This document shows, piece after piece, positions 16,448 through 32,049 of a stretch of DNA of 32,049 nucleotides. A model generated the notes under the pieces. It saw only the letters and a list, made by a program, of their open reading frames with translations, did not search any database and was not told the DNA's origin. Source of the stretch: Williamsia sp. 1135 (GTDB lineage Bacteria; Actinomycetota; Actinomycetes; Mycobacteriales; Mycobacteriaceae); assembly GCF_002095395.1 (NCBI RefSeq), contig NZ_MJEI01000055.1, forward strand, positions 1-32,049, in the 5' to 3' direction. The translations under genes were made by a program, and so were the position numbers. The first letter of the stretch is position 1. Every line of letters begins with the position of its first letter.

Positions 16448-16981
16448 TCAGCTCAGGCCGATGTCGCTCAGCCCCAGGAGCGACCGGTACTCGACGCCCT
16501 CGGCCGCGATGACGGCATCCGCCCCGGTGGCCCGGTCGACGACGGTCGCGACCCCGACCACGATGGCGCCGGCATCGCGAAGCGCGCGGACCGCGGTCAA
16601 CGGTGAGTTGCCGGTCGTGGTGGTGTCCTCGACGACCAGCACCCGTTTGCCCACGATGTCGGGGCCCTCGATCTGGCGTTGCATGCCATGGGCTTTGGCC
16701 GCCTTGCGCACCACGAACGAGTTGATCGGGCGTCCGGGCGAATGCATGATCGCGGTCGCCACCGGATCGGCCCCCAACGTCAGTCCACCGACCGCGTCGA
16801 AGTCCCAGTCGGCGGTGAGCTCGCGCAGTAGCCGGCCGATCAGCGGCGACGCCTCATGGTGCAGGGTTGCGCGACGCAGATCGACGTAATAGTCGGCGTC
16901 GGCGCCCGATGACAGGGTGACTTTGCCATGGACCACCGCGAGCTCTCTGACCAAGTCCGACAACCGGTCACGATCGCTCAC
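16448..16981 (-). CDS. pyrE: Orotate phosphoribosyltransferase
   Basis: Transfers phosphoribose from PRPP to orotate to form OMP in UMP synthesis. The PRPP-binding motif VLVVEDTTTTGNSP is intact, and KVTLSSGADADYYVDLR matches the orotate-site N-terminal segment. At 177 aa it is the short actinobacterial form. GTG 16981 overlaps the stop of the upstream gene in GTGA, implying coupling. Same neighbours as Rv0382c. Confidence 0.96.
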   Translation of the reverse strand: MSDRDRLSDLVRELAVVHGKVTLSSGADADYYVDLRRATLHHEASPLIGRLLRELTADWDFDAVGGLTLGADPVATAIMHSPGRPINSFVVRKAAKAHGMQRQIEGPDIVGKRVLVVEDTTTTGNSPLTAVRALRDAGAIVVGVATVVDRATGADAVIAAEGVEYRSLLGLSDIGLS

Positions 16982-17871
16982 TGAGGGCCTCCTGCTCGGC
17001 GTGATCCCGGCTGCCCAGGTTGGGGCGATATCGGGCCGGACTGGCGTGGAATCGGTCCGGATCCACCGACCGGCGGCACCGGGCTGCGCTGGATCGGACC
17101 CGAAGTGCGGGCGTGTGCACCGGAGTCCCGCGGTGCCGGCCGTGCCGCGCGTTGCGGCAGGTCCTCACGACGGATGTTCTCGGTGCGGGGCTCGGCGAGA
17201 CCCCGCCGGGAGCGACCTGTCGGGCTCGACGGATCGCGGGGATCCGGAGCGCCCTGCGGGTCGACGACAGGCGGCAGGACGCGGAGCAGGTCGGTGAAGC
17301 GCCGGACGGTTTCGAGTGCGGTGTCGAGGCGTTCGGGATCATTGGTGATCGGCATCGACCCCAGCGACCAGGCGCCCTCGTTCCACAGGATCTGGATGTA
17401 GTCGGGCGCATTTGTCGCGAGCGCCACCATGCGGCGATCGCACACCCGGCGCGCCACATCGAGATGACTGGAGAACATCACGCGCCTGCCCATCGCGCCG
17501 AGCAGTTCGACGTCGTCCTCGGAAGGGGCGAGGGTCTTCTCATGCCGCACATCGATCGTCACGTTCGACTCCGTGGTCCGACGGATCGCTACGACGGTCG
17601 CGGTGTCGGCGAGGTCGAAGACCAGCGTTTCTTCGCCGTAGTACGAGCCGTACGCCAAGTCCTGCACGCCGACATGGTCCGGTACGTCCATCGCAGCGCG
17701 TCCGAACTCCGACTTGAGCTCGGGGTCGGTCTCGCGATATTTGAACCCGTGTTGATCTCCCCAGACGGCGCGCTCACGGCGCGCACCGGTGGTGCGCCTG
17801 CGGTCGAGCAGGAGCAGCGCCACGGCGCCGGCCAACGCAACAGCGGCGATCAGGAAGTAGACGGCAGTCAT
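16978..17871 (-). CDS. Membrane-anchored conserved protein with Pro-rich C-terminus (Rv0383c-like)
   Basis: About 297 aa. One N-terminal membrane segment (AVYFLIAAVALAGAVALLLL) then RRRTTGARRER, so the bulk should lie in the cytoplasm, or the segment may serve as an uncleaved signal. Residues ~35-200 form a folded domain with no recognised function (WGDQHGFKYRETD, QDLAYGSYYGEETLVFDL, NEGAWSLGSMPITND). The last ~90 residues are Pro/Gly/Arg-rich with repeated SGPI motifs and likely disordered. It is first in the operon with pyrE and the methyltransferase gene; GTG 17874 is an equally possible start. A -10 box TAAGCT lies 8 nt upstream of the ATG, suggesting a leaderless mRNA. Confidence 0.85.
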   Translation of the reverse strand: MTAVYFLIAAVALAGAVALLLLDRRRTTGARRERAVWGDQHGFKYRETDPELKSEFGRAAMDVPDHVGVQDLAYGSYYGEETLVFDLADTATVVAIRRTTESNVTIDVRHEKTLAPSEDDVELLGAMGRRVMFSSHLDVARRVCDRRMVALATNAPDYIQILWNEGAWSLGSMPITNDPERLDTALETVRRFTDLLRVLPPVVDPQGAPDPRDPSSPTGRSRRGLAEPRTENIRREDLPQRAARPAPRDSGAHARTSGPIQRSPVPPVGGSGPIPRQSGPISPQPGQPGSRRAGGPQ

Positions 17872-17879
17872 CACCGGTC

Positions 17880-17975: not shown

Positions 17976-18473
17976 TTAATTCTCCGGGATCGAGCCCGAC
18001 ACGCGGCCGTCGACAATAAGGTCAGCGGTTGTTTCGCCGTTCGATTTGATCACTCTCACGACCACCAGGTCACCGACGTCGAGAACGTCGACGGTGTCAC
18101 CTCGCGTGGACTGGACGTGGGTGTCCGGGCTCAGGATCAGATGATGTTTGCGGCCGTCCGCGGTGTGTACCGACAGCGCGCCGGCGTCGATCTTGTCGAT
18201 GGTGCACAACACCACCTTCGACCGCTCGGTGTCGAGGTCTTCCGGCACTGCCTCGGCGGAAGGTTCGACCGCGGACAGGCCCGCCTTGTTCGGTGCGACC
18301 TCGGTCGGACTCACGTATTGGATCTGGGTCGACGCCCGGTCGGAGTCGCTGCGTTGCGCTCCCAGATGGATGCAGTAGCCGAGAGCCACGCCGGCCACGG
18401 CCAGTCCGGCGACACACAACAACGTCACGACCCTCGTCGAACGCGGTTGAGATTCAGACACGAGTCCGAACAT
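17976..18473 (-). CDS. Small membrane-anchored or secreted protein of unknown function
   Basis: 165 aa from ATG 18473. A basic stretch (ESQPRSTR) leads into one hydrophobic segment (VVTLLCVAGLAVAGVALGYCIHLG), then an extracytoplasmic part. The C-terminal ~75 residues (VVLCTIDKIDAGALSVHTADG, LILSPDTHVQSTRGDTVDVL, DVGDLVVVRVIKSNG) look like a small beta-barrel and faintly resemble DUF5666-type repeats; that likeness is weak. The frame extends upstream to 18590 with a basic, non-typical sequence, so the later ATG is chosen. It follows the MFS gene at 80 bp on the same strand. Confidence 0.65.
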   Translation of the reverse strand: MFGLVSESQPRSTRVVTLLCVAGLAVAGVALGYCIHLGAQRSDSDRASTQIQYVSPTEVAPNKAGLSAVEPSAEAVPEDLDTERSKVVLCTIDKIDAGALSVHTADGRKHHLILSPDTHVQSTRGDTVDVLDVGDLVVVRVIKSNGETTADLIVDGRVSGSIPEN

Positions 18474-18552
18474 AGAAGCCAAGCCTGAGATCCATCTGTG
18501 AATAGCCGCAACACGGGCCGAGCATATTGACCGACTCGGCAGTCGACGTGAT

Positions 18553-19945
18553 CTAGACGGTCGATTTCGGCACCAGGGTGAATGCCGCAACCACGGCGGC
18601 GCCGGCCATCAGGGCGGCCGTCAGTAAGAATCCCGCGGCGCTCGCCGTCTGTGCACTGTCGTGATGGGAGAACGCCGATGCGGCGATCCCGAACACGGCG
18701 ATGCCGAGGATGCCGCCGAGCTGACGCGACGTCGAGGTGAGGCCCGAACCCTGACCACGGAGCGATGCAGGGACGGTCGCGAGGGCGGACGTGGTCATCG
18801 GGCTCATCAGCAACCCGATGCCGACGCCGGAGGGAATCAACCCGAGGCACAACACCCAGAGCGTCGAGGTTCCCAAACCCAGCGCGATCACCAGACTGCC
18901 GACGCCCAGTGCGGCCGTCCCCCCCGACACCCAGGGCCCGCGGTCCGACCTCGTTGTACCTGGTGCCGGCCCATCGGGTTGCGATCAGCAGCGGGACCAC
19001 CAGCGGCAGGAGAGCGACCCCGGCCGCCGCAGGTGAGAGGTCGAGCGCGGTTTGCAGGACAACCGCTGTGTAGATCGTGGTGACGGTCATCGCGAAACCG
19101 AGGGCGGCGAGGACGAGGGTGCTGCCACCGAAGACGCGGTCCGAAAAGAGTCGCAGGTCCAGAAGGCCGTCCGCGCGGGTCCAGAGGTGCCGGACAAACA
19201 GCCCTGCACTCACCACCCCCAGGACCAGCGCAACCAGTACCGCTGCCGATCCCGCACCCCAGGCCGGCAGTTGCATCAGGCCAAAGGAGATGCCGAACAG
19301 ACCCGCGGTCAGGGTCAGCAGTCCGTAGATATCAACCGTTGCCGAATGACTTTGCAGCATCGACGGTTTGCCGGAGACAGAGCCGGAGGCGGAGCTCGAC
19401 CCGGTAGCCGAGAGCATCAGCGCGATGGCCAGTGCCCCGATCGGGACGTTCAACAGAAATCCCACCCTCCAGGAGGCGAACTCCGCGCACAGGCCACCGA
19501 AAGCCGGGCCCACGGTCGCGAACGCCTGACCTGCACCTGCGTAAACAGCCATCGCCTTGGCCCGACCGTCCTCGGGATACGCGTCGAAGATCAGGGCGAG
19601 GGTGGCGGGCATCATCACCGCGGCCGCGACGCCGGCTGCGGCGCGCCCCACCAGCAGTTCGATCGGCCCCTGCGACACCCCGATCAGCAGGGAGGCCAGG
19701 GCGAAACCACCGGCCCCGACCATGAATGCCCGTGGCGCTCCGATGGAGTCGGAGATCCGACCACCGACCGGAAGCAGTACCGCGAGCGTCAAGAGGTAGG
19801 ACGACACCACCCAGTTCGCGATCGCGGTCCCGAATGACAGGTCGTGCCGCATGCTGGGCAGCATCACTCCGACGATGCTCGAGTCCAACACGAGCAGAGC
19901 CATCGAGGATGTGGCGGCAACGAGCACCCTGCCTGGCGTGCCCAT
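18553..19945 (-). pseudogene. DHA2-type (EmrB/QacA) MFS multidrug exporter, frameshifted in a G7 tract
   Basis: The N-terminal ~340 residues lie in one frame and the last ~120 in another. The first part has LDSSIVGVMLPSM (TM1 signature), GGRISDSIGAPR (motif A), and many membrane segments. The second has SPMTTSALATVPASLRGQGSG followed by RQLGGILGIAVFG, typical of the second half of DHA2 proteins. The break is at a run of seven G on the minus strand (plus 18919-18925). Removing one G joins the frames as ALGVGGTAALGVG and gives a 463-aa protein; the whole span is 3n+1 bases. Drug/H+ antiport is the family role; the substrate is unknown. ATG 19945 follows GAGGTC. Sequencing error, true loss, or slippage-prone tract cannot be told apart here. 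Confidence 0.85.
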
Positions 19946-20007: not shown

Positions 20008-21012
20008 TCAGTGTGGGGCGGGCCTCACCCGGACGTAGCCCGCTTCTTTGTCCACCTCGTTGGCGAGCGGCTCGGACGCCGCGTAGCGCTGCAGGTTTGT
20101 CAGAAACAGCTGCGCAAGTTCATCACGCCAGCCCACCACGTCGCCACTCATATGGGCAGAGATGTGCACGTTCTCCATGTCCCACAAGGGGTTGTCGGCC
20201 GCGAGGGGTTCTGTCTCGAAGACATCGAGGCTGGCGGCCGCGATCTGGCCCTCGCGCAATGCGGCGATGAGAGCCTTTTCGTCGACTAGCTGCCCGCGGC
20301 CGACGTTGATCAGGTGGGCCGAGGGCTTCATGGCCGTCAGCACGTCTGCATCGATCATCTGCGCTGTCTGTTCGGTCAGCGGCGCGATGGTCACGATGTT
20401 GTCGAAGTCTCCTGCGTACTCGGCCAACTCATCGGTCCGCAGGACTGTGCCGAAGTCCGGGTCCTCGGTCCGAGCGATCCGGCCCGCGCCGGTGACCTGC
20501 AGCCCTGCGGCTCTGAGCAGACTGGCGACGGCCCTGCCGATCCCGCCGGTGCCGATCACCAGGGCACTGCGACCGGCGGTGCGGATCGTGTCACGCCGCT
20601 CCCAGTGTTTGAGCTGCTGATATCTCTTGGACACGTGGAACTGTTTGTCCTGGGCGATGATCGAGCCGAGAACAAACTCCGCAATCGGCCCGTCGAAGAC
20701 TCCATGAGCGTTGGTGATCGTGATCGACGACGCCCGCAGTTCGTCGAACATCATGGCGTCGACCCCCGCCGCGGACACATGCACCCACTTCAGCGCCTGT
20801 GCCTGTTCCCAATTGTCCTTCAGCGCCGCGGAGAAGAAGTCCCACAGCATCAGGACATCGGCCCCGCCGTCGGCGGCGAGCGCCCCACCGAGGTCGGCCG
20901 TGGTGGCGAGCCGCACATTCGCGACCTGCCTGATCTGCTCCAGATTGCCCGGGTTCTCCAGTCCGTCGCGTCCCAGGATCACGACGTTCGGCTTCGTGTT
21001 CGCAGTTCCCAT
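20008..21012 (-). CDS. D-isomer-specific 2-hydroxyacid dehydrogenase
   Basis: A 334-aa NAD(P)-dependent enzyme interconverting a 2-oxo acid and its D-2-hydroxy acid. The Rossmann motif is ALVIGTGGIGRAVASLL. Then come TIAPLTEQTAQMI, LINVGRGQLVDE with the catalytic Arg, DVFETEPL with the catalytic Glu, and HISAHMSG with the catalytic His. The N-terminal substrate domain (NVVILGRDGLENP) is typical. The family spans glycerate, lactate and phosphoglycerate dehydrogenases; the substrate is not clear. ATG 21012 is preferred to the upstream ATG 21072, whose extra 20 residues are atypical. It is divergent from the six-gene operon over an 88-bp gap, suggesting shared control and a related substrate. 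Confidence 0.9.
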   Translation of the reverse strand: MGTANTKPNVVILGRDGLENPGNLEQIRQVANVRLATTADLGGALAADGGADVLMLWDFFSAALKDNWEQAQALKWVHVSAAGVDAMMFDELRASSITITNAHGVFDGPIAEFVLGSIIAQDKQFHVSKRYQQLKHWERRDTIRTAGRSALVIGTGGIGRAVASLLRAAGLQVTGAGRIARTEDPDFGTVLRTDELAEYAGDFDNIVTIAPLTEQTAQMIDADVLTAMKPSAHLINVGRGQLVDEKALIAALREGQIAAASLDVFETEPLAADNPLWDMENVHISAHMSGDVVGWRDELAQLFLTNLQRYAASEPLANEVDKEAGYVRVRPAPH

Positions 21013-21061: not shown

Positions 21062-21073
21062 ATTGTTGACAAT
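21062..21073. promoter_or_regulatory. Operator-like palindrome with a -35-like TTGACA in the divergent promoter region
   Basis: ATTGTTGACAAT has perfect 5-bp arms around TG and includes TTGACA (21066-21071), a consensus -35 for the plus-strand operon. The form resembles GntR-family (FadR/VanR type) operators. It lies between the hydroxyacid dehydrogenase gene and the aminotransferase operon, where one regulator could control both. No regulator gene is in the cluster. Confidence 0.5.
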
Positions 21074-21100: not shown

Positions 21101-22363
21101 ATGAGTTCTGCCACCCTCAGCCCTGCCCTCAAACAAGCCACCCCGGTGGTGGTCGATCACGCCAAGGGGTCGTGGATCCACGGCACCGACGGCGTCGACT
21201 ACCTCGACTTCACCACCGGCATCGGCGTCACCAGCACCGGCCACTGCCATCCCAAGGTCGTCGCCGCCGCGCAGGAGCAATGCGGAAAGATCATCCACGC
21301 GCAGTACACGACGGTGATGCACAAGCCGCTGCTGGAACTCACGGACAAGCTCGGCGAGCACCTCCCGACCGGCCTCGACTCCGTGTTCTACGCGAACTCC
21401 GGATCCGAGGCCGTCGAGGCGTCGGTTCGCCTCGCCCGGATGGCCACCGAACGCCCGAACATCGTTGTCTTCCAGGGCGGGTTCCACGGCAGGACCGTCG
21501 CCGCGGCGACCCTGACGACCGCAGGCACCAAGTTCTCGGCAGGCTTCTCGCCGCTCATGGGTGGCGTCCACATGGCGCCGTTCCCCTACGCGTACCGCTA
21601 CGGCTGGGACGAGGCCACCGCGGTCGAGTTCGCGCTGCGGGAGCTCGATTACCTGTTCGCCTCCCGCGTCGCGCCCAACGACACCGCCGCGTTCCTGATC
21701 GAGCCGGTGCTCGGCGACGGCGGCTACCTCCCGACCCCGCCCGCGTTCCTGGCCGGTCTGCGCGAGCGCGCCGACAAGCACGGCATCATCCTGATCCTCG
21801 ACGAGGTGCAGGCCGGCGTCGGCCGCACCGGCAAGTTCTGGGGACACCAGCACAGCGAAGGCCTGATCCCCGACATCCTCATCACCGCCAAGGGCATCGC
21901 CTCGGGCTTTCCGATCTCGGCCATCGCGGCTCCGACGTCGCTGATGGCCAAGGCCTGGCCGGGATCTCAGGGTGGTACTTACGGCGGCAACGCCGTGGCA
22001 GCCGCCGCCGGAGTCGCCACACTGCAGGTGATCGCGGAGGAGAATCTGGTCGAGAACGCCCGGATACGCGGTGATCAGATGCTGCGCGGCCTGTCCGAGC
22101 TGGCACCGAAGTTCCCACAGATCGGCGACGTCCGTGGCCTGGGCCTCATGGCCGGCATCGAGTTCGTCGACGGCGACGGCAAGCCCGACGCGGTGGCCGC
22201 TGCCGCAGTCCAGCAGGCCGCCATTCCCGAGAAGCTGCTCACCCTCACGTGTGGTCCGATGGGTAACGTCGTGCGACTCATCCCCGCGCTGGTTGTCACC
22301 GAAGAGGAAATGGCCACCGGACTGAACAGGTTTGAAGCAGCGCTGACCGCGGCCCTCGGATAG
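21101..22363 (+). CDS. Class III PLP aminotransferase (GABA/diaminobutyrate/acetylornithine type)
   Basis: Transfers a terminal amino group to a 2-oxo acid with PLP. Signatures: SGSEAVEASVRLAR (phosphate-binding), GGFHGRT, LILDEVQAGVGRTG with the PLP-ring Asp, and ITAKGIASGFP with the Schiff-base Lys264; GGTYGGN closes the site. At 420 aa it has the GabT/DoeD size. It is the first gene of the operon; the next begins 8 nt after its stop. In context, plausible substrates are 2,4-diaminobutyrate (giving aspartate semialdehyde) or GABA (giving succinate semialdehyde), since an aldehyde dehydrogenase is in the same operon. The substrate is inferred. No Shine-Dalgarno of note precedes the ATG. Confidence 0.92.
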   Translation: MSSATLSPALKQATPVVVDHAKGSWIHGTDGVDYLDFTTGIGVTSTGHCHPKVVAAAQEQCGKIIHAQYTTVMHKPLLELTDKLGEHLPTGLDSVFYANSGSEAVEASVRLARMATERPNIVVFQGGFHGRTVAAATLTTAGTKFSAGFSPLMGGVHMAPFPYAYRYGWDEATAVEFALRELDYLFASRVAPNDTAAFLIEPVLGDGGYLPTPPAFLAGLRERADKHGIILILDEVQAGVGRTGKFWGHQHSEGLIPDILITAKGIASGFPISAIAAPTSLMAKAWPGSQGGTYGGNAVAAAAGVATLQVIAEENLVENARIRGDQMLRGLSELAPKFPQIGDVRGLGLMAGIEFVDGDGKPDAVAAAAVQQAAIPEKLLTLTCGPMGNVVRLIPALVVTEEEMATGLNRFEAALTAALG

Positions 22364-22371
22364 CGAGGGTC

Positions 22372-25300
22372 ATGGACCCCGCACCCAACGGGACTCGCAT
22401 CAGCGCAGATCTTCAGGCGCTCGGACTGAGCGCCGACACCTCGACGCGTCGACTCACCGAATACTCCTACGACGCATCGAATTACCGGCTGTCACCGCTG
22501 GTTGTAGTGTTCCCGCGCACCGACGAAGATGTGGCAGCGGTCGCCGCCTACTGTCACCGCAACGGCCTCACCGTGACCGCTCGCGGCGGCGGTACCGGCA
22601 TGGGCGGCAACGCGATCGGCAACGGTGTCGTGCTGGACTTCTCGCGGCACATGGACAAAGTGCTCGAAATCGACGCCGAGGGCAGAACCGCGGTGGCCCA
22701 GTCGGGCATCGTCTTGACGACGCTGCAACGCGAGGTGCGCGGCGCCACCGGCGGGACGCTCACCTTCGCACCCGACCCCTCGAGTCAGTCGCGCGCCACC
22801 CTCGGTGGCGCCATCGGCAACGACGCGTGCGGTAACCACTCGGTCCGCTATGGCCGCACCACCGATCACATCGAGTCACTCGATCTCGTCACCGCCGAGG
22901 GGCTGCGGTTGACCGCATTGCGCGACGGGCTCGTGGCCACCGATCCCGCGGACGGTGCTGCCGCCGCGCGGGCCGAGGAGCTGACTGCGGCGATGCGCCG
23001 GCTCACGTCGGCGAACATGGGCGCCCTGCGCACCGAGATGGAGCAGATCCCGCGTCAGGTGTCCGGATATCATCTCGGAAAACTGTTGCCCGAAAACGGC
23101 TTCGACGTCGCACGTGCGCTGGTGGGCACCGAAGGCACCTGCGCGATCGTGGTCTCTGCCAAGGTCCGGCTCGTCACCGCTCCCACCCGCGCCCTGCTGC
23201 TCTGTCTCGGGTATCGCAACGTGGTCGACGCCGCTCGCGACGTCCCGACCCTGCTGGAGTTCGCCCCGTCCGCCATCGAGGGCATCGACGAACGGATCGT
23301 GCAGACCATGCGGGCCCGGCGCGGCGATGATTCTGTCGCGGGTCTGCCCGAGGGCAACGCCTGGCTCTACATCGACCTCGACGAGGAGAGCGCCGAAGAC
23401 CCGGCGTTGGCTGCCGCGCAGCTGCTGGAAAAGCTCTACGCCAACGGCCGGCTCGTCGACGGACGTACCGTTCCCGATCCCGCGCAGCGGATCTCGCTGT
23501 GGCGGGTCCGGGAAGACGGCGCCGGGTTGTCGTCACGGTTGGTGAGCTCCGAAGAGGTCAACCCCGAAGACGGTGGACACGGCGGCACGTACGAGTCGTG
23601 GCCCGGCTGGGAGGACTCGGCCGTCGCACCCGAGAACCTCGCCGACTACCTCGAAGGCTTCACCGAACTCCTCGATCACCACGGCTTGACCGGGGTCATG
23701 TACGGCCACTTCGGCGCCGGCTGCATGCACGTGCGCATCACATTCGACCTGCGCAGCGCGGAAGGTCGGGCGGTGATGCGCCGGTTCTGCACCGATGCTG
23801 CCGCGCTCGTGGTCAAACACGGCGGTTCGCTGTCGGGCGAGCACGGCGACGGTCGCGCGCGGTCGGAGTTACTACCGATCATGTACTCGCCGCAGATGAT
23901 CTCGGCCTTCGGTGATTTCAAGAAGATCTGGGACCCGGCCGGCATCCTCAACCCGGGCAGCATCGTCGACCCCGATCCGCTGGACGAGAACCTGGTGCTC
24001 GCGGACGTTCCGAATCGACAGTGGCAGACTAGCTTCGATCTCGGAACACCAGGGATAGGCGTCAATGGACAACCAGGTCTCGACCCCTTCATCCACGCCG
24101 TCCAGGGCTGTATCGGCGTGGGACGCTGCCGTTCCGACGCCGGCGGAGTCATGTGCCCGAGCTATCGCGCAACCCGGGACGAAAAGGATTCCACCCGCGG
24201 ACGCGCACGCGTGCTGCAGGAGATGGTCCGCACCGCACGCGACATCAAATCCGGTTGGCGTGACGAGGATTCGCGCGAAGCCCTCGACCTGTGCCTGTCG
24301 TGCAAGGCCTGCTCGACCGATTGCCCGGTGGGCGTCGACATGGCCACCTACAAATCGGAGTTCTTCTCCAACTACTACCGCGGCCGGGTCCGCCCGCTCT
24401 CGCACTACTCGCTGGGCTGGATGCCGGCCTGGCTCAGCGTCGCAGGCACGCTGGCCCCGCTGATCAACAAGACGCTGTCCAGCAGACTGTCGACGCTGGC
24501 CGCCAAGGCCGGGGGGATCGACCCGCGGCGCACCATGCCCGCGTTCGCCCGTCGTAAACAGGTCCGCGCCGGAATGGCCGGACTGCGCGCCGACCCGTCC
24601 GCCGACACCGTGCTCTTCGTCGACTCGTTCACCAAGGCGTTTCGTCCGCACGTCGCGGCCGCCACCGCCAACGTCCTCGGCAGCGCGGGGCGCACGGTCA
24701 GTTGCGAGGCCGATCAGTGCTGTGGACTCACCTGGATCTCCACGGGTCAACTCGGGCATGCCCGAAAGGTGTTGGCCCGTACGGCTGCTGCCCTCGACGA
24801 CGGCACCGACAGGCCGATCGTGGTGCCCGAGCCGAGCTGCGCCGCCGCACTGCGCAAGGATCTGCCCGAGCTCGTCCACACCGATGCCGCCCGCCGGGTC
24901 GCGGCTCGGGTTCGTAGCTTCGCCGTCGAGGTGGGACATCTCCTCGACGACGGCTGGGAGCCCCCCGTACCGTTGCCCGCCGAGGTCACGGTGCAGACCC
25001 ACTGTCACGAATACGCCTCGTTCGGGCCGACCACGCAGCCGGCGGTCCTGAAGCGACTCGGTGCCACCACCGTGCACCAGGCGGACGGGTGCTGCGGTGT
25101 CGCAGGCAATTTCGGATTCGAAAAAGGCCACTACGACGTCAGCATGGACGTCTCCGAACAGGCGTTGGCCCCCGCGCTGCGCAAGCACGGCAGTGACACC
25201 CCTGTCCTCACCGACGGTTTCAGCTGCGCCATGGCCGTACAGCACCTCACCGCCACCGACAACACCATTCCCGATGTGCAGTCGGTCCACCTGGCCGAAC

Positions 25301-25383
25301 TGCTCGACCCCGCTTTGCTCATCTCACAGACGACCGCGCAGACACCTGCGGCACAGGTCGCCGAACAAGGAGGTTCGATATGA
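22372..25383 (+). CDS. Large FAD/Fe-S D-2-hydroxyacid dehydrogenase (GlcD-GlpC fusion, YdiJ-like)
   Basis: A 1003-aa fusion. Residues ~45-270 form a FAD_binding_4 (PCMH) domain (TARGGGTGMGGNAIG). Residues to ~545 form the FAD-oxidase C domain with GEHGDGRARSELL. Two ferredoxin-type clusters follow: CIGVGRC...CPS from C580 and CLSCKACSTDCPVG from C641. Two CCG domains close it, with DQCCGL (C783) and DGCCGVAGNFG (C907). This matches one-chain FAD/Fe-S enzymes such as E. coli YdiJ that oxidise D-lactate- or D-2-hydroxyglutarate-type acids and feed electrons to the respiratory chain. No membrane segment; likely peripheral on the inner face. Its stop overlaps the next start in ATGA. The substrate is unknown, and its part in the operon is the least clear. 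Confidence 0.9.
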   Translation: MDPAPNGTRISADLQALGLSADTSTRRLTEYSYDASNYRLSPLVVVFPRTDEDVAAVAAYCHRNGLTVTARGGGTGMGGNAIGNGVVLDFSRHMDKVLEIDAEGRTAVAQSGIVLTTLQREVRGATGGTLTFAPDPSSQSRATLGGAIGNDACGNHSVRYGRTTDHIESLDLVTAEGLRLTALRDGLVATDPADGAAAARAEELTAAMRRLTSANMGALRTEMEQIPRQVSGYHLGKLLPENGFDVARALVGTEGTCAIVVSAKVRLVTAPTRALLLCLGYRNVVDAARDVPTLLEFAPSAIEGIDERIVQTMRARRGDDSVAGLPEGNAWLYIDLDEESAEDPALAAAQLLEKLYANGRLVDGRTVPDPAQRISLWRVREDGAGLSSRLVSSEEVNPEDGGHGGTYESWPGWEDSAVAPENLADYLEGFTELLDHHGLTGVMYGHFGAGCMHVRITFDLRSAEGRAVMRRFCTDAAALVVKHGGSLSGEHGDGRARSELLPIMYSPQMISAFGDFKKIWDPAGILNPGSIVDPDPLDENLVLADVPNRQWQTSFDLGTPGIGVNGQPGLDPFIHAVQGCIGVGRCRSDAGGVMCPSYRATRDEKDSTRGRARVLQEMVRTARDIKSGWRDEDSREALDLCLSCKACSTDCPVGVDMATYKSEFFSNYYRGRVRPLSHYSLGWMPAWLSVAGTLAPLINKTLSSRLSTLAAKAGGIDPRRTMPAFARRKQVRAGMAGLRADPSADTVLFVDSFTKAFRPHVAAATANVLGSAGRTVSCEADQCCGLTWISTGQLGHARKVLARTAAALDDGTDRPIVVPEPSCAAALRKDLPELVHTDAARRVAARVRSFAVEVGHLLDDGWEPPVPLPAEVTVQTHCHEYASFGPTTQPAVLKRLGATTVHQADGCCGVAGNFGFEKGHYDVSMDVSEQALAPALRKHGSDTPVLTDGFSCAMAVQHLTATDNTIPDVQSVHLAELLDPALLISQTTAQTPAAQVAEQGGSI

Positions 25384-26867
25384 CAGCGTCAACCGTCACC
25401 GATCGCAAGGGCCGGGCCGCCGACCTCATCGGTGCGCTGCCCACCGGGCTCTACATCAACGGGGAATGGGGCCCGGCAGCAGACGGCGCGACGTTCGACG
25501 TCGAGAACCCAGCCACGGGCGAGGTGATCGCCACCGTCGCCAAGGGCGGGCAGGCCGACGCGACCGCCGCCATCGAAGCCGCGGCAGCACACCAGAAGAG
25601 CTGGGCCGCAACCGCGCCCCGCGAACGCAGCGAGATCCTGCGCCGCGCCTACGAACTCCTGCTGGAACGCCAGGACGATCTGGCGCTCATCATGACCACC
25701 GAGATGGGCAAGCCGCTGGCCGAAGCGAAGGGCGAGGTCGCGTACGCCGCCGAGTTCTTCCGCTGGTTCTCCGAAGAGGCCGTCCGGATCGGTGGCGATC
25801 ACACCACCACCGGTGACGGTAAGAACCGCATCCTCGTCACCAAAGAGGCTGTCGGGCCCTGCATCCTGATCACGCCATGGAACTTCCCACTCGCCATGGG
25901 CACCCGCAAGATCGGGCCGGCGATCGCGGCCGGGTGCACCATGGTGTTCAAGCCGGCGGAGCTCACGCCGCTCACGATTCTTGCGCTCGCAGAGATCCTC
26001 ACGGAGGCCGGCCTCCCGCCCGGTGTGCTCAACATCGTCACCACCGACGATCCCGGTTCGGTCGTGGAGACCTGGATGGACAGCGGTCTCGCGCGCAAGG
26101 TCAGCTTCACCGGCTCGACCCAGGTCGGCAAACTCTTGCTGGAGCAGGCGTCCCGGTCGGTGATGCGCACCTCGATGGAACTCGGCGGCAACGCCCCGTT
26201 CCTCGTGTTCGACGACGCCGACATCGACAAAGCCGTCGACGGTGCCATGGTCGCGAAGATGCGGAACATGGGTGAGGCGTGCACAGCGGCCAACCGGATG
26301 TTCGTGCATCGCAGTGTCGCCGGGGAGTTCGGCAAGAAGCTGTCCGAGCGGATGGCCGCTCTGACCGTCGGCAACGGTGCCGTCGACGGCACCGATGTCG
26401 GCCCCCTCGTCGAGAAGAAGGCCGTCGACAAGGTGAAGTCTCTGGTGGCCGATGCGGTCGATCGTGGTGCCACGGTGATCTGCGGTGGCGACACGACCTT
26501 TGACGCCGGATACTTCTATCAGCCGACGGTGTTGTCGGGTGTGGATCCGAACTCCGATCTGATGAGTACAGAGATCTTCGGACCGGTCGCCCCGATCATC
26601 CCGTTCGACGATGAAGACGAGGTGATCGCGCTGGCAAACGACACCCCTTGGGGGCTCGTGGGCTACCTCTTCACGCAGGACATCGACCGTGGACTGCGGG
26701 TGTCGTCGGCGCTCGAGGTCGGCATGGTCGGACTCAACACCGGCCTGGTGTCCAACCCGGCGGCACCGTTCGGTGGCGTCAAGCAATCCGGCCTGGGCCG
26801 AGAAGGCGGCAGGATCGGGATCGACGAGTTCCTCGAAGTGAAGTATCTGGCAATCCCCCGTACTTAG
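25380..26867 (+). CDS. gabD: NAD(P)-dependent succinate-semialdehyde-type aldehyde dehydrogenase
   Basis: Oxidises a small carboxylic semialdehyde to the diacid. Aldehyde dehydrogenase signatures: ITPWNFPLAMGTRKIGPA (oxyanion Asn, cofactor), MELGGNAPF with general base E267, and GEACTAANRMF with nucleophile C301; FTGSTQVGK is the cofactor turn. At 495 aa it has GabD size, and TTEMGKPLAEAKGEV is typical of the SSADH group. Paired with the class III aminotransferase, it could make succinate from GABA-derived semialdehyde or aspartate from aspartate semialdehyde (as DoeC/SsdA do). The start overlaps the previous stop and has AAGGAGG at 25367-25373. Confidence 0.92.
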   Translation: MTASTVTDRKGRAADLIGALPTGLYINGEWGPAADGATFDVENPATGEVIATVAKGGQADATAAIEAAAAHQKSWAATAPRERSEILRRAYELLLERQDDLALIMTTEMGKPLAEAKGEVAYAAEFFRWFSEEAVRIGGDHTTTGDGKNRILVTKEAVGPCILITPWNFPLAMGTRKIGPAIAAGCTMVFKPAELTPLTILALAEILTEAGLPPGVLNIVTTDDPGSVVETWMDSGLARKVSFTGSTQVGKLLLEQASRSVMRTSMELGGNAPFLVFDDADIDKAVDGAMVAKMRNMGEACTAANRMFVHRSVAGEFGKKLSERMAALTVGNGAVDGTDVGPLVEKKAVDKVKSLVADAVDRGATVICGGDTTFDAGYFYQPTVLSGVDPNSDLMSTEIFGPVAPIIPFDDEDEVIALANDTPWGLVGYLFTQDIDRGLRVSSALEVGMVGLNTGLVSNPAAPFGGVKQSGLGREGGRIGIDEFLEVKYLAIPRT

Positions 26868-26914
26868 AAGCAAGTACCAGAAGCGAATACGACCTAAGGA
26901 GGTGTGAAGAAGCC

Positions 26915-28108
26915 ATGTACCTCGGCTCACAGCTGTTCACCGATGCCGAATACGAGACCCGGCTGGCGAACGTCCGGACGATGATGGATCGGCAGGGCCT
27001 GTCGGCGATCATCGTGACGGATCCGGCCAACATCTTCTATCTCATCGGCTACAACGCCTGGTCGTTCTACACCCCTCAGATGCTGTTCGTCCCGATGGAC
27101 GGTGAGATGGTGTTCTTCGCACGGGAGATGGACGCCCACGGCGCTCACCGCACCACCTGGCTTCCCGCCGAGCAGATCGTCGGCTATCCGGAGAGCTACG
27201 TGCACCGTCCGCACGTACACCCGTTCGACTGGGTGGCATTCGCCTTGCGCCAGCGCCACCTCATCGCGCCGGCGTCGCGCGGCGGTTCGGTCGGGATGGA
27301 GATGGACTCACACTTCTTCTCCCCCAAGGCCTACCGGGCGCTGTTCAACGCCATCCCCGAGTGGAAGCTGGTCGACTGCTTCGAGCTAGTCAACTGGGTG
27401 CGATCGGTCAAGTCCGACGCCGAGATCCAGCTGATGCGGCAGGCGGGCATGGTGTGTTCAGAAGCCATGCGGGCGGCCATCGACACCATCGACATCGGGG
27501 TCCGGCAATGTGATGCGGCAGCAGCGATCTCGCAGGCCCAGATAACCGGCACCGACAAGTTCGGTGGCGACTATCCGGCCATCGTCCCGATGATGCCCAC
27601 CGGCGCCGCCGCGGACACCCCGCATCTCACCTGGCACCAGGGCACTTTCATCAGCGGCGAGGCAGTGGTCGTCGAGTTGACGGGCGCCCACAATCGCTAC
27701 CACTGTCCACTCGCCCGCACCGTGGCGCTGGGCCCGGTGAACAAGGATGTCGACTACGTCGCCGGTGCGACCGCAGAGGGGCTCAACAACGTACTCGAGG
27801 CCATCGCACCCGGTGTCCCGACCCGCGAACTCGCGTCCACCTGGAATTGGACCCTGGCCAAGTACGGACTCGAAAAGCATTCTCGTCTGGGCTATTCGAT
27901 CGGCATCGGTTACCCGCCGGACTGGGGCGAGCGCACCATCAGCATCCGCACCGAAGACGAGTCGATCCTCGAAGAAAACATGACGTTCCACATCGTCTGT
28001 GGGATGTGGATGGACGGCTACGGCTTCGAATTGTCAGAGTCGGTCCGGGTGAGTGCCACCGGAGTCGAGACCTTCACCAGCTTCCCCCGCGACCTGATCA
28101 GAAAGTGA
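26915..28108 (+). CDS. M24 creatinase-fold hydrolase, DoeA/EutD (ectoine hydrolase)-like
   Basis: A 397-aa protein with an N-terminal creatinase domain (to ~165) and a C-terminal pita-bread domain. It lacks the dinuclear metal site of true aminopeptidases: aligned ligands are E254 (for Asp), P265 (Asp), Y327 (His) and V361 (Glu), with only E375 kept. That is the creatinase/EutD condition. FGGDYPAIVPMMPTGAA, HLTWHQG, RYHCPLARTV and YPPDWGERTISIR are, from memory, hallmarks of DoeA/EutD enzymes, which open the ectoine ring to N-acetyl-diaminobutyrate through a covalent Glu (near 255 in EutD). A related creatinine-, amidine- or peptide-like substrate is possible. ATG 26915 follows AAGGAGGTG (26896-26904). 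It begins 47 nt after the dehydrogenase stop. Confidence 0.85.
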   Translation: MYLGSQLFTDAEYETRLANVRTMMDRQGLSAIIVTDPANIFYLIGYNAWSFYTPQMLFVPMDGEMVFFAREMDAHGAHRTTWLPAEQIVGYPESYVHRPHVHPFDWVAFALRQRHLIAPASRGGSVGMEMDSHFFSPKAYRALFNAIPEWKLVDCFELVNWVRSVKSDAEIQLMRQAGMVCSEAMRAAIDTIDIGVRQCDAAAAISQAQITGTDKFGGDYPAIVPMMPTGAAADTPHLTWHQGTFISGEAVVVELTGAHNRYHCPLARTVALGPVNKDVDYVAGATAEGLNNVLEAIAPGVPTRELASTWNWTLAKYGLEKHSRLGYSIGIGYPPDWGERTISIRTEDESILEENMTFHIVCGMWMDGYGFELSESVRVSATGVETFTSFPRDLIRK

Positions 28109-28115
28109 GAGACGC

Positions 28116-29348
28116 ATGACCGCAACCGAACTTTCCCACCACGCCCCTACCTTCCCGCTGGCCGGGCGGGCCAAGGATCTAGTGGGCTCGATGATCGATT
28201 CGTCCACCTCCCTGCTCGCAGCGCAGAAGCACGACATCGTGCGCTTCGCGATGGGCTCGCCGGCCGACGAGGCCGTGCCCGCCGACGAGTTCCGCGAGAT
28301 CGCCGGCAGCATCCTCGACCACACGTCCTTCACCTACGGCGCGTCCGAGGGCGAGCCGCGTCTACTGGATCTGCTGGTCAAATACCTTGCCGGTACCCCT
28401 GACCCGGCCAGCGAAGACCGCCTCGTCATCACCACCGGCGGCATGCAGGGCCTCGACCTCGCGTGCAAACTCTTCGTCGACCCGGGCGACCTGGTGATCA
28501 CGGAGTCCCCCACCTACACCAACGGCAGCGCCACAGCGCTCTCCTACGGTGCGCAGCTCCTCGAAGTCCCCGTCGACGACGAGGGCATGATGGTGGACCA
28601 GCTGCCCGACCTGGTGGCGCGTACCCATCGGACCCCCAAGGCGATCTACACGATCCCCAACTTCCAGAACCCGTCCGGTGTGACGCTGTCCCTGGAGCGC
28701 CGGAAAGCGTTGTTGGAGTTGGCCCATAAGTGGGGCGCGGTGATCATCGACGACGATCCCTACGCGTTGCTGCGGTTCTCCGGAGAAGACATCCCGACGT
28801 TCCAGACGCTGAGCCCCGATGATCCCCTGCTGTTCTCGGTCCGCACCTTCTCCAAGATCCTGGCTCCGGGGTGGCGGGTCGGCTGGGTCGACGCCGACCC
28901 GGCGCTGCGCCAGCTGCTGATCAACGGCAAGCAGGCCATGGACACCTGCACCAACGTGCCGAACCAGCACATCGTTGCCGAGTACATCTCGCGCGGCGGT
29001 CTGGACGACCACCTGGTGTCGATCCGCGAGCTGTACCGAATCCGGCGCGACGCGATGCTCACGTCGCTGCAGACGCATCTCGGCGATGAGGTCACCAGCA
29101 CCAATCCCGATGGTGGCTTCTTCCTCTGGGTCACGCTGCAGGGCAAGTACGAGGGGCTCGACACCCGCGAGCTGTTCGAGATCGCCCTCGCGCAGGGGGT
29201 GGCATTCATCCCCGGCCCGGCGCTCTCGCCCGGCGGTCACTTCCGCAATGCCCTGCGTCTGTGTTTCGCCTCCAGCACCCCGGAACGGATCGACGAGGGT
29301 GTCCGCCGCCTCAAGAGTGCTCTGGATCTGGCGCTGGCTGCCTCGTGA
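28116..29348 (+). CDS. Class I/II PLP aminotransferase (2-aminoadipate/MocR-domain type)
   Basis: A 410-aa fold-type I aminotransferase. Motifs: TSFTYGASEGEPRLLDLL (substrate loop region), TTGGMQGLDLACKL, PNFQNPSG (PLP-pocket Asn), DDDPYALLRF (Asp binding the ring) and RTFSKILAPGWRVGW with Schiff-base Lys247; NALRLCF contains the carboxylate-binding Arg. It belongs to the broad-range group of LysN/KAT-II-like enzymes that also supplies the C-terminal domain of MocR regulators. There is no N-terminal winged helix here, so it is an enzyme rather than a regulator. In the operon it could move the amino group of aspartate or another amino-acid product onto 2-oxoglutarate. It begins 7 nt after the M24 gene. 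Confidence 0.9.
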   Translation: MTATELSHHAPTFPLAGRAKDLVGSMIDSSTSLLAAQKHDIVRFAMGSPADEAVPADEFREIAGSILDHTSFTYGASEGEPRLLDLLVKYLAGTPDPASEDRLVITTGGMQGLDLACKLFVDPGDLVITESPTYTNGSATALSYGAQLLEVPVDDEGMMVDQLPDLVARTHRTPKAIYTIPNFQNPSGVTLSLERRKALLELAHKWGAVIIDDDPYALLRFSGEDIPTFQTLSPDDPLLFSVRTFSKILAPGWRVGWVDADPALRQLLINGKQAMDTCTNVPNQHIVAEYISRGGLDDHLVSIRELYRIRRDAMLTSLQTHLGDEVTSTNPDGGFFLWVTLQGKYEGLDTRELFEIALAQGVAFIPGPALSPGGHFRNALRLCFASSTPERIDEGVRRLKSALDLALAAS

Positions 29349-30532
29349 CCGAGACGGTCGTGGACGAAACTGCCGTGCTCGACCTTGTCGACGAGGCTGA
29401 GCTGGTATCGCTGACGCGGTCCCTGATCGACGCCGGCGGTGAGAATCCGGGTGGCACCGAGGGCCAGACGGTCGCCGTACTCGAACGGGCCTGCCAGGCT
29501 CTGGGCTTCACTGTGGAGACGTGGGAAGTCGCTCCGGGGCGACCGAATCTGACGGCCACATTGCCGGGCACCGGCGACGCTCCGGGGCTGATGGTTTTAG
29601 GCCACTCCGACGTGGTGCCGGCCGGTGACGGCTGGACCCGGCGCCCGTTCGAGGCGAGTGTGTCGGCCGGCCGGATCTACGGTCGCGGCGCCACCGACAT
29701 GAAGGGTGGCCTGGCGTCGGCTGTGATCGCGATGGCCGCGTTGTCGCGGTCCGGAGTGCAGTTGCCCGGTCCCGTGCAACTCGCGTGCACGGTCGACGAA
29801 GAAGACCTCGGGATCGGCATCCGGGATTTCGTGACGCGCTCGTCGTCGCACCGGTTCGCCGGCTGTGTGGTCGCCGAGCCCACCGACCTCGAGACAGTCA
29901 TCGCCTGCCGTGGTGCGTCGTACATCGAGGTCCGGATCATCGGTCGCGCAGCTCATTCGGGTCGTCCCGCCGACGGTCGCAACGCCATCGATGCGGCGGC
30001 GGCGATCATCGACCTGGTCCGCGCAGACCAGCGCAGCATGCTCTCCTCGCGCGACCCCCTGCTCGGCACCGGCACCTGGAACACCGGACTGATCGAAGGC
30101 GGTCAGGGCATTTCGGTCGTCGCACCCAGCGCTACCGTCAGTTTCGATCGCCGGCTCATGCCCGGCGAAGATGCATTCGAGGTCGCCACGTGGTTGCGGG
30201 GCGCGATCAGCGAGGCAGGTATCGATTCCGACGGCATCACCGTCGATGTCGAGGTCACGATGGCCATGCCCGGCTTCGAAACAGATCGCGACCACCCACT
30301 TGCCGCCCGGGCCGCCACCGCGGTGGTCGACGCCGGCGGTGCAACCACCATCACCGGCTGGACAGCAGCCTGCGACGGCGGCTTCATTGACCGCGATCTC
30401 GGCATACCCGCGATCGTTCTCGGTCCGGGCGGTCTGAACGACCAGGCACATCGTCCCGACGAGTCCGTCTCGATCGCCGAGTTGGTCACCGCCGCGAAGG
30501 CATACGCCCTCTTGGCCTTACGACTGCTCTGA
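29345..30532 (+). CDS. M20-family metallohydrolase (ArgE/DapE-type deacylase)
   Basis: A 395-aa Zn-dependent amidohydrolase that removes acyl groups from amino acids or cleaves small peptides. Metal-site residues: MVLGHSDVVP (H87), GATDMKGG (bridging D118), TVDEED (catalytic E152 and ligand E153), VVAEPTD and NDQAHRPDE (last ligand His). RAAHSGRPADGRNAI is the dimerisation-domain His segment. GTG 29345 overlaps the previous stop in GTGA, fixing the start; upstream in-frame sequence lies inside the aminotransferase gene. In the operon it could deacylate the ring-opened product of the M24 enzyme, replacing the unrelated EutE/DoeB deacetylase of known ectoine pathways. That role is inference. 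Confidence 0.9.
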   Translation: MTETVVDETAVLDLVDEAELVSLTRSLIDAGGENPGGTEGQTVAVLERACQALGFTVETWEVAPGRPNLTATLPGTGDAPGLMVLGHSDVVPAGDGWTRRPFEASVSAGRIYGRGATDMKGGLASAVIAMAALSRSGVQLPGPVQLACTVDEEDLGIGIRDFVTRSSSHRFAGCVVAEPTDLETVIACRGASYIEVRIIGRAAHSGRPADGRNAIDAAAAIIDLVRADQRSMLSSRDPLLGTGTWNTGLIEGGQGISVVAPSATVSFDRRLMPGEDAFEVATWLRGAISEAGIDSDGITVDVEVTMAMPGFETDRDHPLAARAATAVVDAGGATTITGWTAACDGGFIDRDLGIPAIVLGPGGLNDQAHRPDESVSIAELVTAAKAYALLALRLL

Positions 30533-30903
30533 CTGCTCTGACTGCCAAAGATGCCACCGACCGTGCCATCAACGCCGCCCACCGTGCCAATCCGAACGCC
30601 GGCGTGCGTTGAAACCGTGAGCGGGCCCTTCCGTGCGTTGACCGTGCTCTTAATACCGGGGTTCCCAAGAATATTCGCTCCAGCGCCGACGGAGTAGCGA
30701 AGCCCCTGACCAGCTCACTCGAGACGTATCTCGTGCGGTTCGTCCGAATACAGGGCGGAGACCGTGGTGCTGCCGCCCGGCCCATCCGGGCGGCAGCACC
30801 TTGCGTTTCACACTGTGGAATTGTCAATCTGCGTGCGCGGTCCCGAAGCGTTCTCGGGTACGCGGGGGGTCGAGCGGTCTGAGAGTTGCTGTCAGAAAGT
30901 AGA
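30533..30903. other. 371-bp intergenic region
   Basis: No credible gene. It begins inside a 9-bp tandem repeat (gactgctct, 30522-30545) that spans the M20 stop codon. Coding-like codon bias is absent, GC is lower around 30650-30680 (cttaataccgg...aagaatattcg), and a strong hairpin lies at 30766-30800. It separates the catabolic operon from the convergent HNH gene. Confidence 0.7.
30766..30800 (+). terminator. Rho-independent terminator of the catabolic operon
   Basis: A perfect 15-bp stem (ggtgctgccgcccgg / ccgggcggcagcacc) with a cccat loop, followed by ttgcgttt. It lies about 230 nt after the last stop of the six-gene operon; the long untranslated tail is unusual. The T-rich side is on the plus strand, so it serves the operon rather than the convergent gene. 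Confidence 0.75.
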
Positions 30904-32049
30904 TCAGGCTGCGAGTGTCATGGTTCGCCTGTTGTAGGCGGGTAAGGGTCTTCGTTGCGGGTCGATATCGGCCGGCGGAATCAGCCACGGATGCCCATCG
31001 GACCCCATACTGATCTCCCATCCGGTGTTGTGGATTGCGCGGTGGCAGGTCCGGCACAGTAGGCAGCCATTGCCCAATGTTGTGGTGCCACCGTCGGACC
31101 AGTAGATGATGTGGTGGCAATCAGACCAGGACGCTGATCCGCCGCATTTAACACAGCATTGGTCGCGGATGATGATCGCTTTGCGGACAGCGCCGGTGAA
31201 CAGGCGTTTCGAAGGTCCGACGTCGATCGGCACCCCGTGCTGGTCGAGGATGACCGATGCCATCGAGGAATCGCACGCCAGCAATTTCGCGAGGTGCTCG
31301 GTGATCGGTCCCATCCACTCCAGCGTCGCCCGGTCGGGGTGGTCGGCGGGTACGGATACGTTCACCTCGGTCCGCGGCGCCGACACGAATCCATCGCCGC
31401 CGCCACCGCCGCAATCGAGCAACTGATGCAACGCGTCAGCGCGGCGCTGGGTGTCACTGCGGGCATCATCAGATCCATCGGGCTCTGGGCGTGGCCGGCT
31501 CCACAGGTCCAGCGCGGCGTGCAACTTCTCCCCGATCTGCGCATCCACATCGAACCGACCCACCAACCGTCCCTCACTGAACGCGTAGTCGAGTTTGTTG
31601 AGTGAGGGATCCTCAGCCGGGGTGGGTCCGCCGGTGTCGTGGGCGACCTGGTTTCCCAGACCTTGGGCGATCTTCTCGATCTCGGTGGGTCGCGCTCCGG
31701 AGATGGCGTGACTCAACAATTTTCCTTCGAAGACGACTCGTTCCTCGTCGGTGATCCCGACGTCCGACCTGTCGTTGATCTGCTTGATCCCTTTGACCAC
31801 GGCGTCGACATGCTCGGTGGAGAGGAATCCATCCCGGAAGTACCCGGCGGTGCGATCGAGCTTCGCGACGCCGGCGCCGATACGTAGCCAGCGCGATGCT
31901 GGTGCTGGGGCGGCGCCGTTGTCTTGCAGCCACTTCGACGGTGTGGTGCCGGCTTTCTTCGCGAACCCGAGCCGGTCGATCATCGCCGCACAGACCGACA
32001 GCTGCGACTCGGTCGCATTGCGCAGGGTGATCAGGTCTTTCGTCAGTGA
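30904..32049 (-). CDS. DUF222/HNH endonuclease (13E12-type) protein, N-terminus beyond the window
   Basis: At least 381 aa. The frame stays open to the window end without a stop (LRNATESQLSVCAAMIDRLG), so the true start lies upstream. The DUF222 part (VVKGIKQINDR, ARPTEIEKIAQGL) is followed by the HNH zinc site: CVKCGGSASWSDCHHI, NGCLLCRTCHRAIH. Such proteins are multicopy in mycolata (the 13E12 repeat family of M. tuberculosis); their role is unclear, and some are linked to mobile or repeated DNA. A run of five Gly plus Asp (CGGGGGDGF) marks the linker. Confidence 0.9.
   Translation of the reverse strand, partial: SLTKDLITLRNATESQLSVCAAMIDRLGFAKKAGTTPSKWLQDNGAAPAPASRWLRIGAGVAKLDRTAGYFRDGFLSTEHVDAVVKGIKQINDRSDVGITDEERVVFEGKLLSHAISGARPTEIEKIAQGLGNQVAHDTGGPTPAEDPSLNKLDYAFSEGRLVGRFDVDAQIGEKLHAALDLWSRPRPEPDGSDDARSDTQRRADALHQLLDCGGGGGDGFVSAPRTEVNVSVPADHPDRATLEWMGPITEHLAKLLACDSSMASVILDQHGVPIDVGPSKRLFTGAVRKAIIIRDQCCVKCGGSASWSDCHHIIYWSDGGTTTLGNGCLLCRTCHRAIHNTGWEISMGSDGHPWLIPPADIDPQRRPLPAYNRRTMTLAA

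Follow-up and report, generated by a model that had tools for sequence, protein, structure and literature searches.

A candidate GntR/FCD-controlled ectoine regulon in Williamsia and its possible hydroxy-acid route to D-malate

The described gene clusters closest to the locus reported here are those for ectoine breakdown, doeABCD of Halomonas elongata and eutABCDE-asnC-ssd-atf of Ruegeria pomeroyi, which include a metal-free M24 protein of the DoeA kind, a class III aminotransferase and a semialdehyde dehydrogenase. A further kind, the DoeA2-DoeB2 clusters (curated models NF038259 and NF038260), joins an ectoine hydrolase to an M20 deacetylase, an aminotransferase and a dehydrogenase. For Gram-positive bacteria, passages of a 2026 survey (PMC13188858) call ectoine breakdown unproven and provisional, and describe provisional clusters with a EutD homologue but without eutE, and with an AbgB amidohydrolase in addition. 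Here, we describe a gene set with likenesses to all three in Williamsia sp. 1135, on a 32,049-nucleotide stretch of DNA (the window) that is one entire contig (NZ_MJEI01000055.1; C36). Like doe/eut, it encodes a DoeA-like M24 protein, a class III aminotransferase (AT3) and a semialdehyde dehydrogenase (SSADH). Unlike doe/eut, it also encodes an M20 protein, an extra class I aminotransferase (AT1), a D-2-hydroxyacid dehydrogenase (2HADH) and an FAD/Fe-S dehydrogenase, and its regulator is of the GntR/FCD family. These extra enzymes suggest a route other than the textbook one. Judged by the enzyme families, the linkage of the genes, a common conserved palindrome and the kinship of M24 with DoeA, the gene set very probably degrades ectoine, a protectant against salt stress, and would form a regulon for ectoine uptake and degradation under presumed GntR/FCD control, with the palindrome as candidate operator. 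The best explanation of the whole, which we advance at slightly less than even confidence, is an ectoine regulon with a hydroxy-acid route to D-malate.

The core of the locus consists of six open reading frames (ORFs) on the + strand: AT3 (21101..22363; 420 residues, GabT-like), the FAD/Fe-S protein (22372..25383; 1003 residues, resembling YdiJ-type D-2-hydroxyacid dehydrogenases), SSADH (25380..26867; 495 residues, GabD-like), M24 (26915..28108; 397 residues), AT1 (28116..29348; 410 residues, multiple-substrate/LysN type) and M20 (29345..30532; 395 residues, an ArgE/DapE-type deacylase). They are spaced by 8, 47 and 7 nt or overlap by 4 nt, the latter twice. Pfam assigns each of the six proteins to a named family, with best-model E-values from 2e-27 to 2e-165 (Aminotran_3 at 6e-114 for AT3; FAD_binding_4, FAD-oxidase_C, Fer4_8 and CCG for the FAD/Fe-S protein; Aminotran_1_2 for AT1); SSADH scores 595 bits against TIGR01780 (cut-off 646), and M20 exceeds the cut-off of TIGR01910 (226.2 versus 217.6 bits). 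The ORF coordinates and Pfam assignments thus bear out the original prediction of a six-gene operon with these families, gaps and overlaps. That count missed a divergent gene, however: 2HADH (20008..21012, - strand; Pfam 2-Hacid_dh_C, E 2e-47) faces away from the operon, 88 bases from its start, and is part of the system, which therefore exceeds six genes. The predicted operator ATTGTTGACAAT (21062..21073, strand not assigned) lies between 2HADH and AT3.

M24 is the protein that points to a substrate. Its best solved relative is Halomonas DoeA (6twk, E 5e-103), and its assignment as an ectoine-hydrolase-like (DoeA/EutD-like) protein draws on this match, an alignment and a tree. When M24 is aligned with the host's own M24 peptidase (MAFFT), the five metal-ligand places are held by E254, P265, Y327, V361 and S374 (the last two numbered by hand count), so that all five ligands are replaced, and Halomonas DoeA likewise lacks the five; M24 is indeed the metal-site-free hydrolase that had been predicted. 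Position E254 corresponds to E255 of Halomonas DoeA, presumably the catalytic glutamate, and is invariant in 12/12 aligned proteins; 46 positions are invariant across this set, which includes DoeA, one DoeA2 and the window M24. In a quick tree (59 rows, one of them characterised; long branches flagged; one locus is entered twice, as L076 and L092), an actinobacterial M24 clade (31 rows, support 98) is sister to a clade of Halomonas DoeA with ten actinobacterial proteins from metagenome-assembled genomes (MAGs; 11 rows, support 100). The SH-like approximate likelihood ratio test (SH-aLRT) gives the joint node a value of 93, not starred. DoeA2 branches elsewhere as a separate deep clade, and M24 is set apart from five M24 peptidase-like rows. 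M24 therefore groups with Halomonas DoeA, the sole characterised row, and not away from it. A plain M24 dipeptidase was considered and dropped, given the replaced metal ligands and the distance from the peptidase-like rows in the tree.

Gene neighbourhood points the same way. In two loci (L147 and L151), the M24 orthologue stands directly after ehuBCDA ectoine-transporter genes; EhuA, EhuB and EhuC of L151 score above their curated cut-offs, as do EhuA and EhuD in an Arthrobacter locus (L124). Because M24 lacks the metal site, is sister to the DoeA clade and has two orthologues that follow ehuBCDA, we regard ectoine, with good confidence, as the likely substrate. On this evidence M24 would act like DoeA; formal membership of the DoeA family is not claimed. 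The predicted ectoine-type catabolism, with M24 as its opening hydrolase, is thus supported by the sequence evidence.

What follows ring opening depends on the remaining enzymes. DoeB/EutE (TIGR02994) has no match in the host genome at E 0.001. M20 matches acetylornithine deacetylase 7rsf at E 4e-33, with the metal and catalytic stretches GHxD, DMKG, DEE, EPT and AHxPDE aligned, and 9/10 MAG loci with an M24 of the Halomonas DoeA clade have, next to M24, a gene that shares 31-36% identity with the window M20. M20 is probably a deacetylase, and the idea that it stands in for DoeB/EutE holds up at the level of sequence. The novelty claimed for this substitution is smaller than supposed, as the curated DoeB2 (NF038260) is itself an M20 ectoine deacetylase; with DoeB2 already catalogued, we rejected M20 alone as a novelty. 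A DoeA2/DoeB2 identity for the Williamsia cluster was also dropped. M24 scores 209 bits against the DoeA2 model NF038259 (cut-off 575), unlike DoeA2 it does not belong to that separate deep clade, the BLASTP match between DoeB2 and the window M20 is not significant, and NF038260 is not in the best 25 of 52 M20 matches listed. In three DoeA2-DoeB2 loci (L049-L051), AT1, 2HADH and the FAD/Fe-S protein are unmatched at E 1e-15. One of these loci (L049), from another genome of the same family, carries a DoeA2-DoeB2 cluster above both curated cut-offs, and so adds another kind of ectoine degradation to the family.

The nearest solved structure to AT3 by sequence is E. coli 4-aminobutyrate aminotransferase, GabT (295 bits, phmmer); the match to an aminotransferase of a DoeA2/DoeB2 cluster is 147 bits (BLASTP), a rough comparison since the programs differ. 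SSADH matches the solved SSADH structures 3jz4/4v6h at 528 bits. The earlier proposal that AT3 and SSADH work as DoeD and DoeC, with aspartate as the end product, is not established. The two enzymes predicted as additions to the pathway, a class I aminotransferase and a D-hydroxyacid dehydrogenase, do find support in the sequences: AT1 has the solved relatives 1x0m, 3aov, 1wst and 2egy, with a multiple-substrate or 2-aminoadipate aminotransferase likeness, and 2HADH is by family a D-isomer-specific 2-hydroxyacid dehydrogenase. The FAD/Fe-S protein joins an FAD domain to Fe-S and CCG domains, as do YdiJ-type D-2-hydroxyglutarate and D-malate dehydrogenases, and is expected to oxidise a D-2-hydroxy acid. 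The likeness is distant (431 bits against NF049975, the NCBIfam model for YdiJ D-2-hydroxyglutarate dehydrogenase, with a cut-off of 1350), and unlike YdiJ the protein sits in an ectoine cluster. Aligned residues gave no discrimination between D-malate and D-2-hydroxyglutarate specificity. The D-2-hydroxyglutarate dehydrogenases of Pseudomonas and humans oxidise D-malate, according to passages of PMC9504171.

The set is widely shared. In a sample of 151 genomes of the family, 29 carry M24 (at least 59% identity, the next group lying near 33%) and 122 do not. AT1 is found in 29/29 carriers and 1/122 non-carriers (30 genomes of 151), 2HADH in 29/29 and 56/122 (85 of 151), and the FAD/Fe-S protein, at 60% identity or more, in 26/29 and 27/122 (two of the 27 in pieces only). 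Ectoine synthase occurs in 29/29 carriers and 101/122 non-carriers (130 of 151, uncorrected for kinship); in a Rhodococcus-like genus, its gene ectC lies 11-17 kb from M24 in 6/6 carriers (g6: G036, G056, G116, G128, G140 and G150). The single non-carrier with AT1 (G028, L189) lacks ectC as well as an M24 orthologue and keeps a remnant 2HADH-FAD/Fe-S-AT1-M20.

Across a wider range, we kept the best 80 of 286 relatives from a scan of contigs of named genomes, from Williamsia, Gordonia, Arthrobacter, Pseudarthrobacter, Kocuria, Mobilicoccus, Cryobacterium, Glaciibacter, Homoserinimonas, Brevibacterium, Rhodococcus and others; three pairs of loci each derive from a single genome (L127/L135, L137/L144 and L139/L154). 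Partners were counted in the 69/80 loci whose flanks reach 9 kb or more ahead of M24 and 5 kb or more behind it, 11/80 being excluded for short flanks. All eight partners tested (2HADH, AT1, AT3, FAD/Fe-S, GntR, M20, ProP-like transporter and SSADH) are present in 38/69, so that the arrangement exceeds chance. Singly, AT1 is found in 62, M20 in 61, SSADH in 58, 2HADH in 57, AT3 and FAD/Fe-S in 56 each, and GntR and the ProP-like gene in 52 each; in one named locus (L167), 2HADH is the sole partner. AT1 starts within 700 nt after M24 in 71/80 named loci, a count that leaves out L123, where AT1 begins a few bases before the end of M24. In Gordonia jinhuaensis (L120), 2HADH, M24 and AT1 are at the locus, M20 adjoins a ProP-like gene elsewhere, and the best AT3 match is 39%; this genome fits the scheme, and a housekeeping 4-aminobutyrate (GABA) enzyme could take the place of AT3 there. 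Kocuria sp. 2-558A (L137/L144) and Arthrobacter sp. H14 (L139/L154) have two M24 clusters each, with differing partners. A record titled Kitasatospora arboriphila NRRL B-24581 (L098) holds the Williamsia cluster (M24 95%) in a genome of the host's genus, and is probably mislabelled.

The claim that no transporter or regulator accompanies the operon does not survive beyond the window; both were overlooked because the contig ends at the window edge. The final 1286 bases of the window (30764-32049) are identical to the end of another contig of the same assembly, C73 (L177 14639-15924). Inward from the shared end, C73 carries ProP-like transporter, GntR/FCD regulator, DUF3830, amidase and EutA-like genes, with the palindrome between the last two, and in Williamsia sp. 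1138 (L095) the gene order of the window and C73 is unbroken. Three of the linked ProP-like proteins were scanned and score 372, 424 and 432 bits, below the ProP cut-off of 544; the 372-bit protein is a near-identical orthologue of the host's own. The host genome contains no EhuB above the cut-off, and of two lesser matches the better reaches 65 bits against 190.9. The amidase gene, DUF3830 and two EutA-like genes (aspartate/glutamate racemase-type) travel together (L177 7007-10761, L124 14633-18165 and L192 2557-6365).

The palindrome ATTGTnnACAAT links these parts. Its single copy in the window, at 21062 in the divergent 2HADH/AT3 promoter, compares with 0.03 expected. First spotted in the window and afterwards counted elsewhere, it has 153 sites in 69/80 named loci, of which 150 fall in the 450 nt ahead of the point where a cluster gene is estimated to start and 0 within mapped genes. 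As a control in the same 80 loci, of all 160 half-sites that contain a single G or C, the runner-up has 3; this count and the window expectation are better controls than the Markov shuffle, of which there was only one. Sites precede 2HADH/AT3, M24, amidase/EutA-like, GntR and DUF3830 genes, and we infer that the GntR/FCD protein reads them.

Based upon these enzyme families, we propose the following route. Ectoine would be imported by the ProP-like or an Ehu-type transporter, and M24 would hydrolyse it to N-acetyl-2,4-diaminobutyrate. No partner accompanies M24 more constantly than AT1, which therefore probably acts on the M24 product; this aminotransferase would take off the alpha-amino group to leave a 2-oxo acid, and such an acid is a substrate that 2HADH would reduce, giving the D-2-hydroxy acid 4-acetamido-2-hydroxybutanoate. 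M20 would then strip the acetyl group to yield 4-amino-2-hydroxybutanoate, a hydroxy-GABA. Such a compound suits the GabT-like AT3 and then the GabD-like SSADH, which would convert it to D-malate, and D-malate in turn suits the FAD/Fe-S dehydrogenase, which would form oxaloacetate. The order and products of the steps after ring opening are tentative, and we lean slightly against their being right in full. The host probably uses L-diaminobutyrate and L-aspartate semialdehyde for ectoine synthesis, and the detour would keep breakdown separate from both. That actinobacteria degrade ectoine by such a hydroxy-acid detour, never meeting the diaminobutyrate and aspartate semialdehyde of synthesis in the same cell, is possible, though we consider it rather doubtful.

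Several observations weigh against the proposed scheme. M24 reaches 415 bits against the curated model TIGR02993, below the cut-off of 613. The substrates of ArgE-type M20 enzymes are acylated on the alpha nitrogen, a preference that suits the rival route to aspartate at least equally well. YdiJ, the closest protein in architecture to the FAD/Fe-S protein, does not use D-malate; E. coli and Pantoea YdiJ are strict for D-2-hydroxyglutarate, as reported in parts of PMC9504171. The amidase, DUF3830 and EutA-like genes share the palindrome yet fit nowhere in the scheme, and in Gordonia jinhuaensis the palindrome is in neither of the two stretches fetched. M24 is not followed by AT1 in six Brevibacterium loci (three of which have M20) and in the two Ehu loci, L147 and L151. 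Conversely, 2HADH, AT3, SSADH and FAD/Fe-S occur together without M24, AT1 and M20 in 7/13 further loci, and one genome (G018, L188) retains 2HADH-AT3-FAD/Fe-S-SSADH-M20 without M24, AT1 and ectC. Finally, the 151 genomes and 80 loci are interrelated, so that the counts are of non-independent events.

The gene set could be explained in at least three other ways. The aspartate route with swapped enzymes, in which M24 yields N-alpha-acetyl-diaminobutyrate, M20 diaminobutyrate, AT3 and SSADH (as DoeD and DoeC) aspartate, and AT1 oxaloacetate, follows the doe/eut route as given in parts of PMC7192451 and PMC13188858, and draws on the homology of GabT with DoeD and of GabD with DoeC noted in passages of PMC5320631. 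An ArgE/DapE-type M20 also suits an alpha-N-acetyl diamino acid. This route would make 2HADH and the FAD/Fe-S protein side redox enzymes, however, and so leave jobless two proteins present in 29/29 and 26/29 carriers, and a mere aspartate aminotransferase need not accompany the hydrolase in 29/29 genomes and 71/80 loci; we consider it unlikely, at perhaps one chance in a handful or slightly better. Less likely still, the core of AT3, SSADH, FAD/Fe-S and 2HADH may serve another substrate, degrading an amide-bound omega-amino acid freed by the amidase or M20, with M24 opening another cyclic amidine. The loci with the core and without M24 and AT1 (L190-L193 and L198-L200) raise this possibility: 6/7 have an amidase gene, and G018 and G028 retain parts of the set without M24 orthologues or ectC. 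Against it, M24 keeps the positions that DoeA and DoeA2 share, groups with DoeA and has orthologues beside ectoine-transporter genes. At least three Ehu-like subunits occur in 2/7 of these M24-less loci, and all seven have the same GntR and the palindrome.

Least probable of the three is 5-hydroxyectoine as the main substrate, its hydroxyl group handled by the hydroxyacid enzymes and the EutA-like proteins. The hydroxyl of hydroxyectoine is on the beta carbon, whereas these dehydrogenases act at the alpha carbon. EutA-like genes do stand behind the same palindrome, the one scanned scoring 85 bits against TIGR02990 (cut-off 318), and EutD opens 5-hydroxyectoine too, as reported in parts of PMC13188858. 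However, EutB and EutC are not among the annotated neighbour families found in at least 8/80 named loci, several smaller families being unannotated, and the ORFs flanking the host ectC have the size and position expected of ectA and ectB, none of them being read as ectD, though models for ectA, ectB and ectD were not applied.

The ectoine regulon with its hydroxy-acid route would be of interest in several ways. It offers a concrete case, in common soil actinobacteria with ectoine synthase, that comprises a transporter and a candidate hydrolase together with an operator and a regulator, both predicted. The D-malate detour, if true, would amount to a second way of catabolising ectoine and would show how cells that make this solute might break it down again and yet avoid a futile cycle. 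The regulon would also offer likely jobs for proteins that are widespread yet annotated by family only, namely FAD/Fe-S dehydrogenases, EutA-like proteins and amidases. Williamsia, Gordonia, Arthrobacter, Rhodococcus, Brevibacterium and GntR all go unmentioned in the main text of PMC13188858, and overlap with the clusters of its Figure 7 is possible. In one library of open-access literature, no title concerned this cluster, no paper turned up on ectoine hydrolase with Gordonia, and DUF3830 with ectoine gave only unrelated items. Among the papers listed there for 4-amino-2-hydroxybutanoate and 4-acetamido-2-oxo- or 4-acetamido-2-hydroxybutanoate in ectoine breakdown, most dealt with aminoglycosides and none, by title, with ectoine.

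Elsewhere in the window, the contig end shared with C73 (30764-32049) bears a DUF222-HNH gene. An efflux-like ORF of the major facilitator superfamily (MFS; 18425-19945, - strand, 506 residues) has an MFS match over residues 14-336 only, and its remainder seems out of frame. A protein like TtfA, the trehalose monomycolate transport factor (16978-17874, - strand), scores 200 bits, below the cut-off of 450, and is consistent with a mycolic-acid bacterium.

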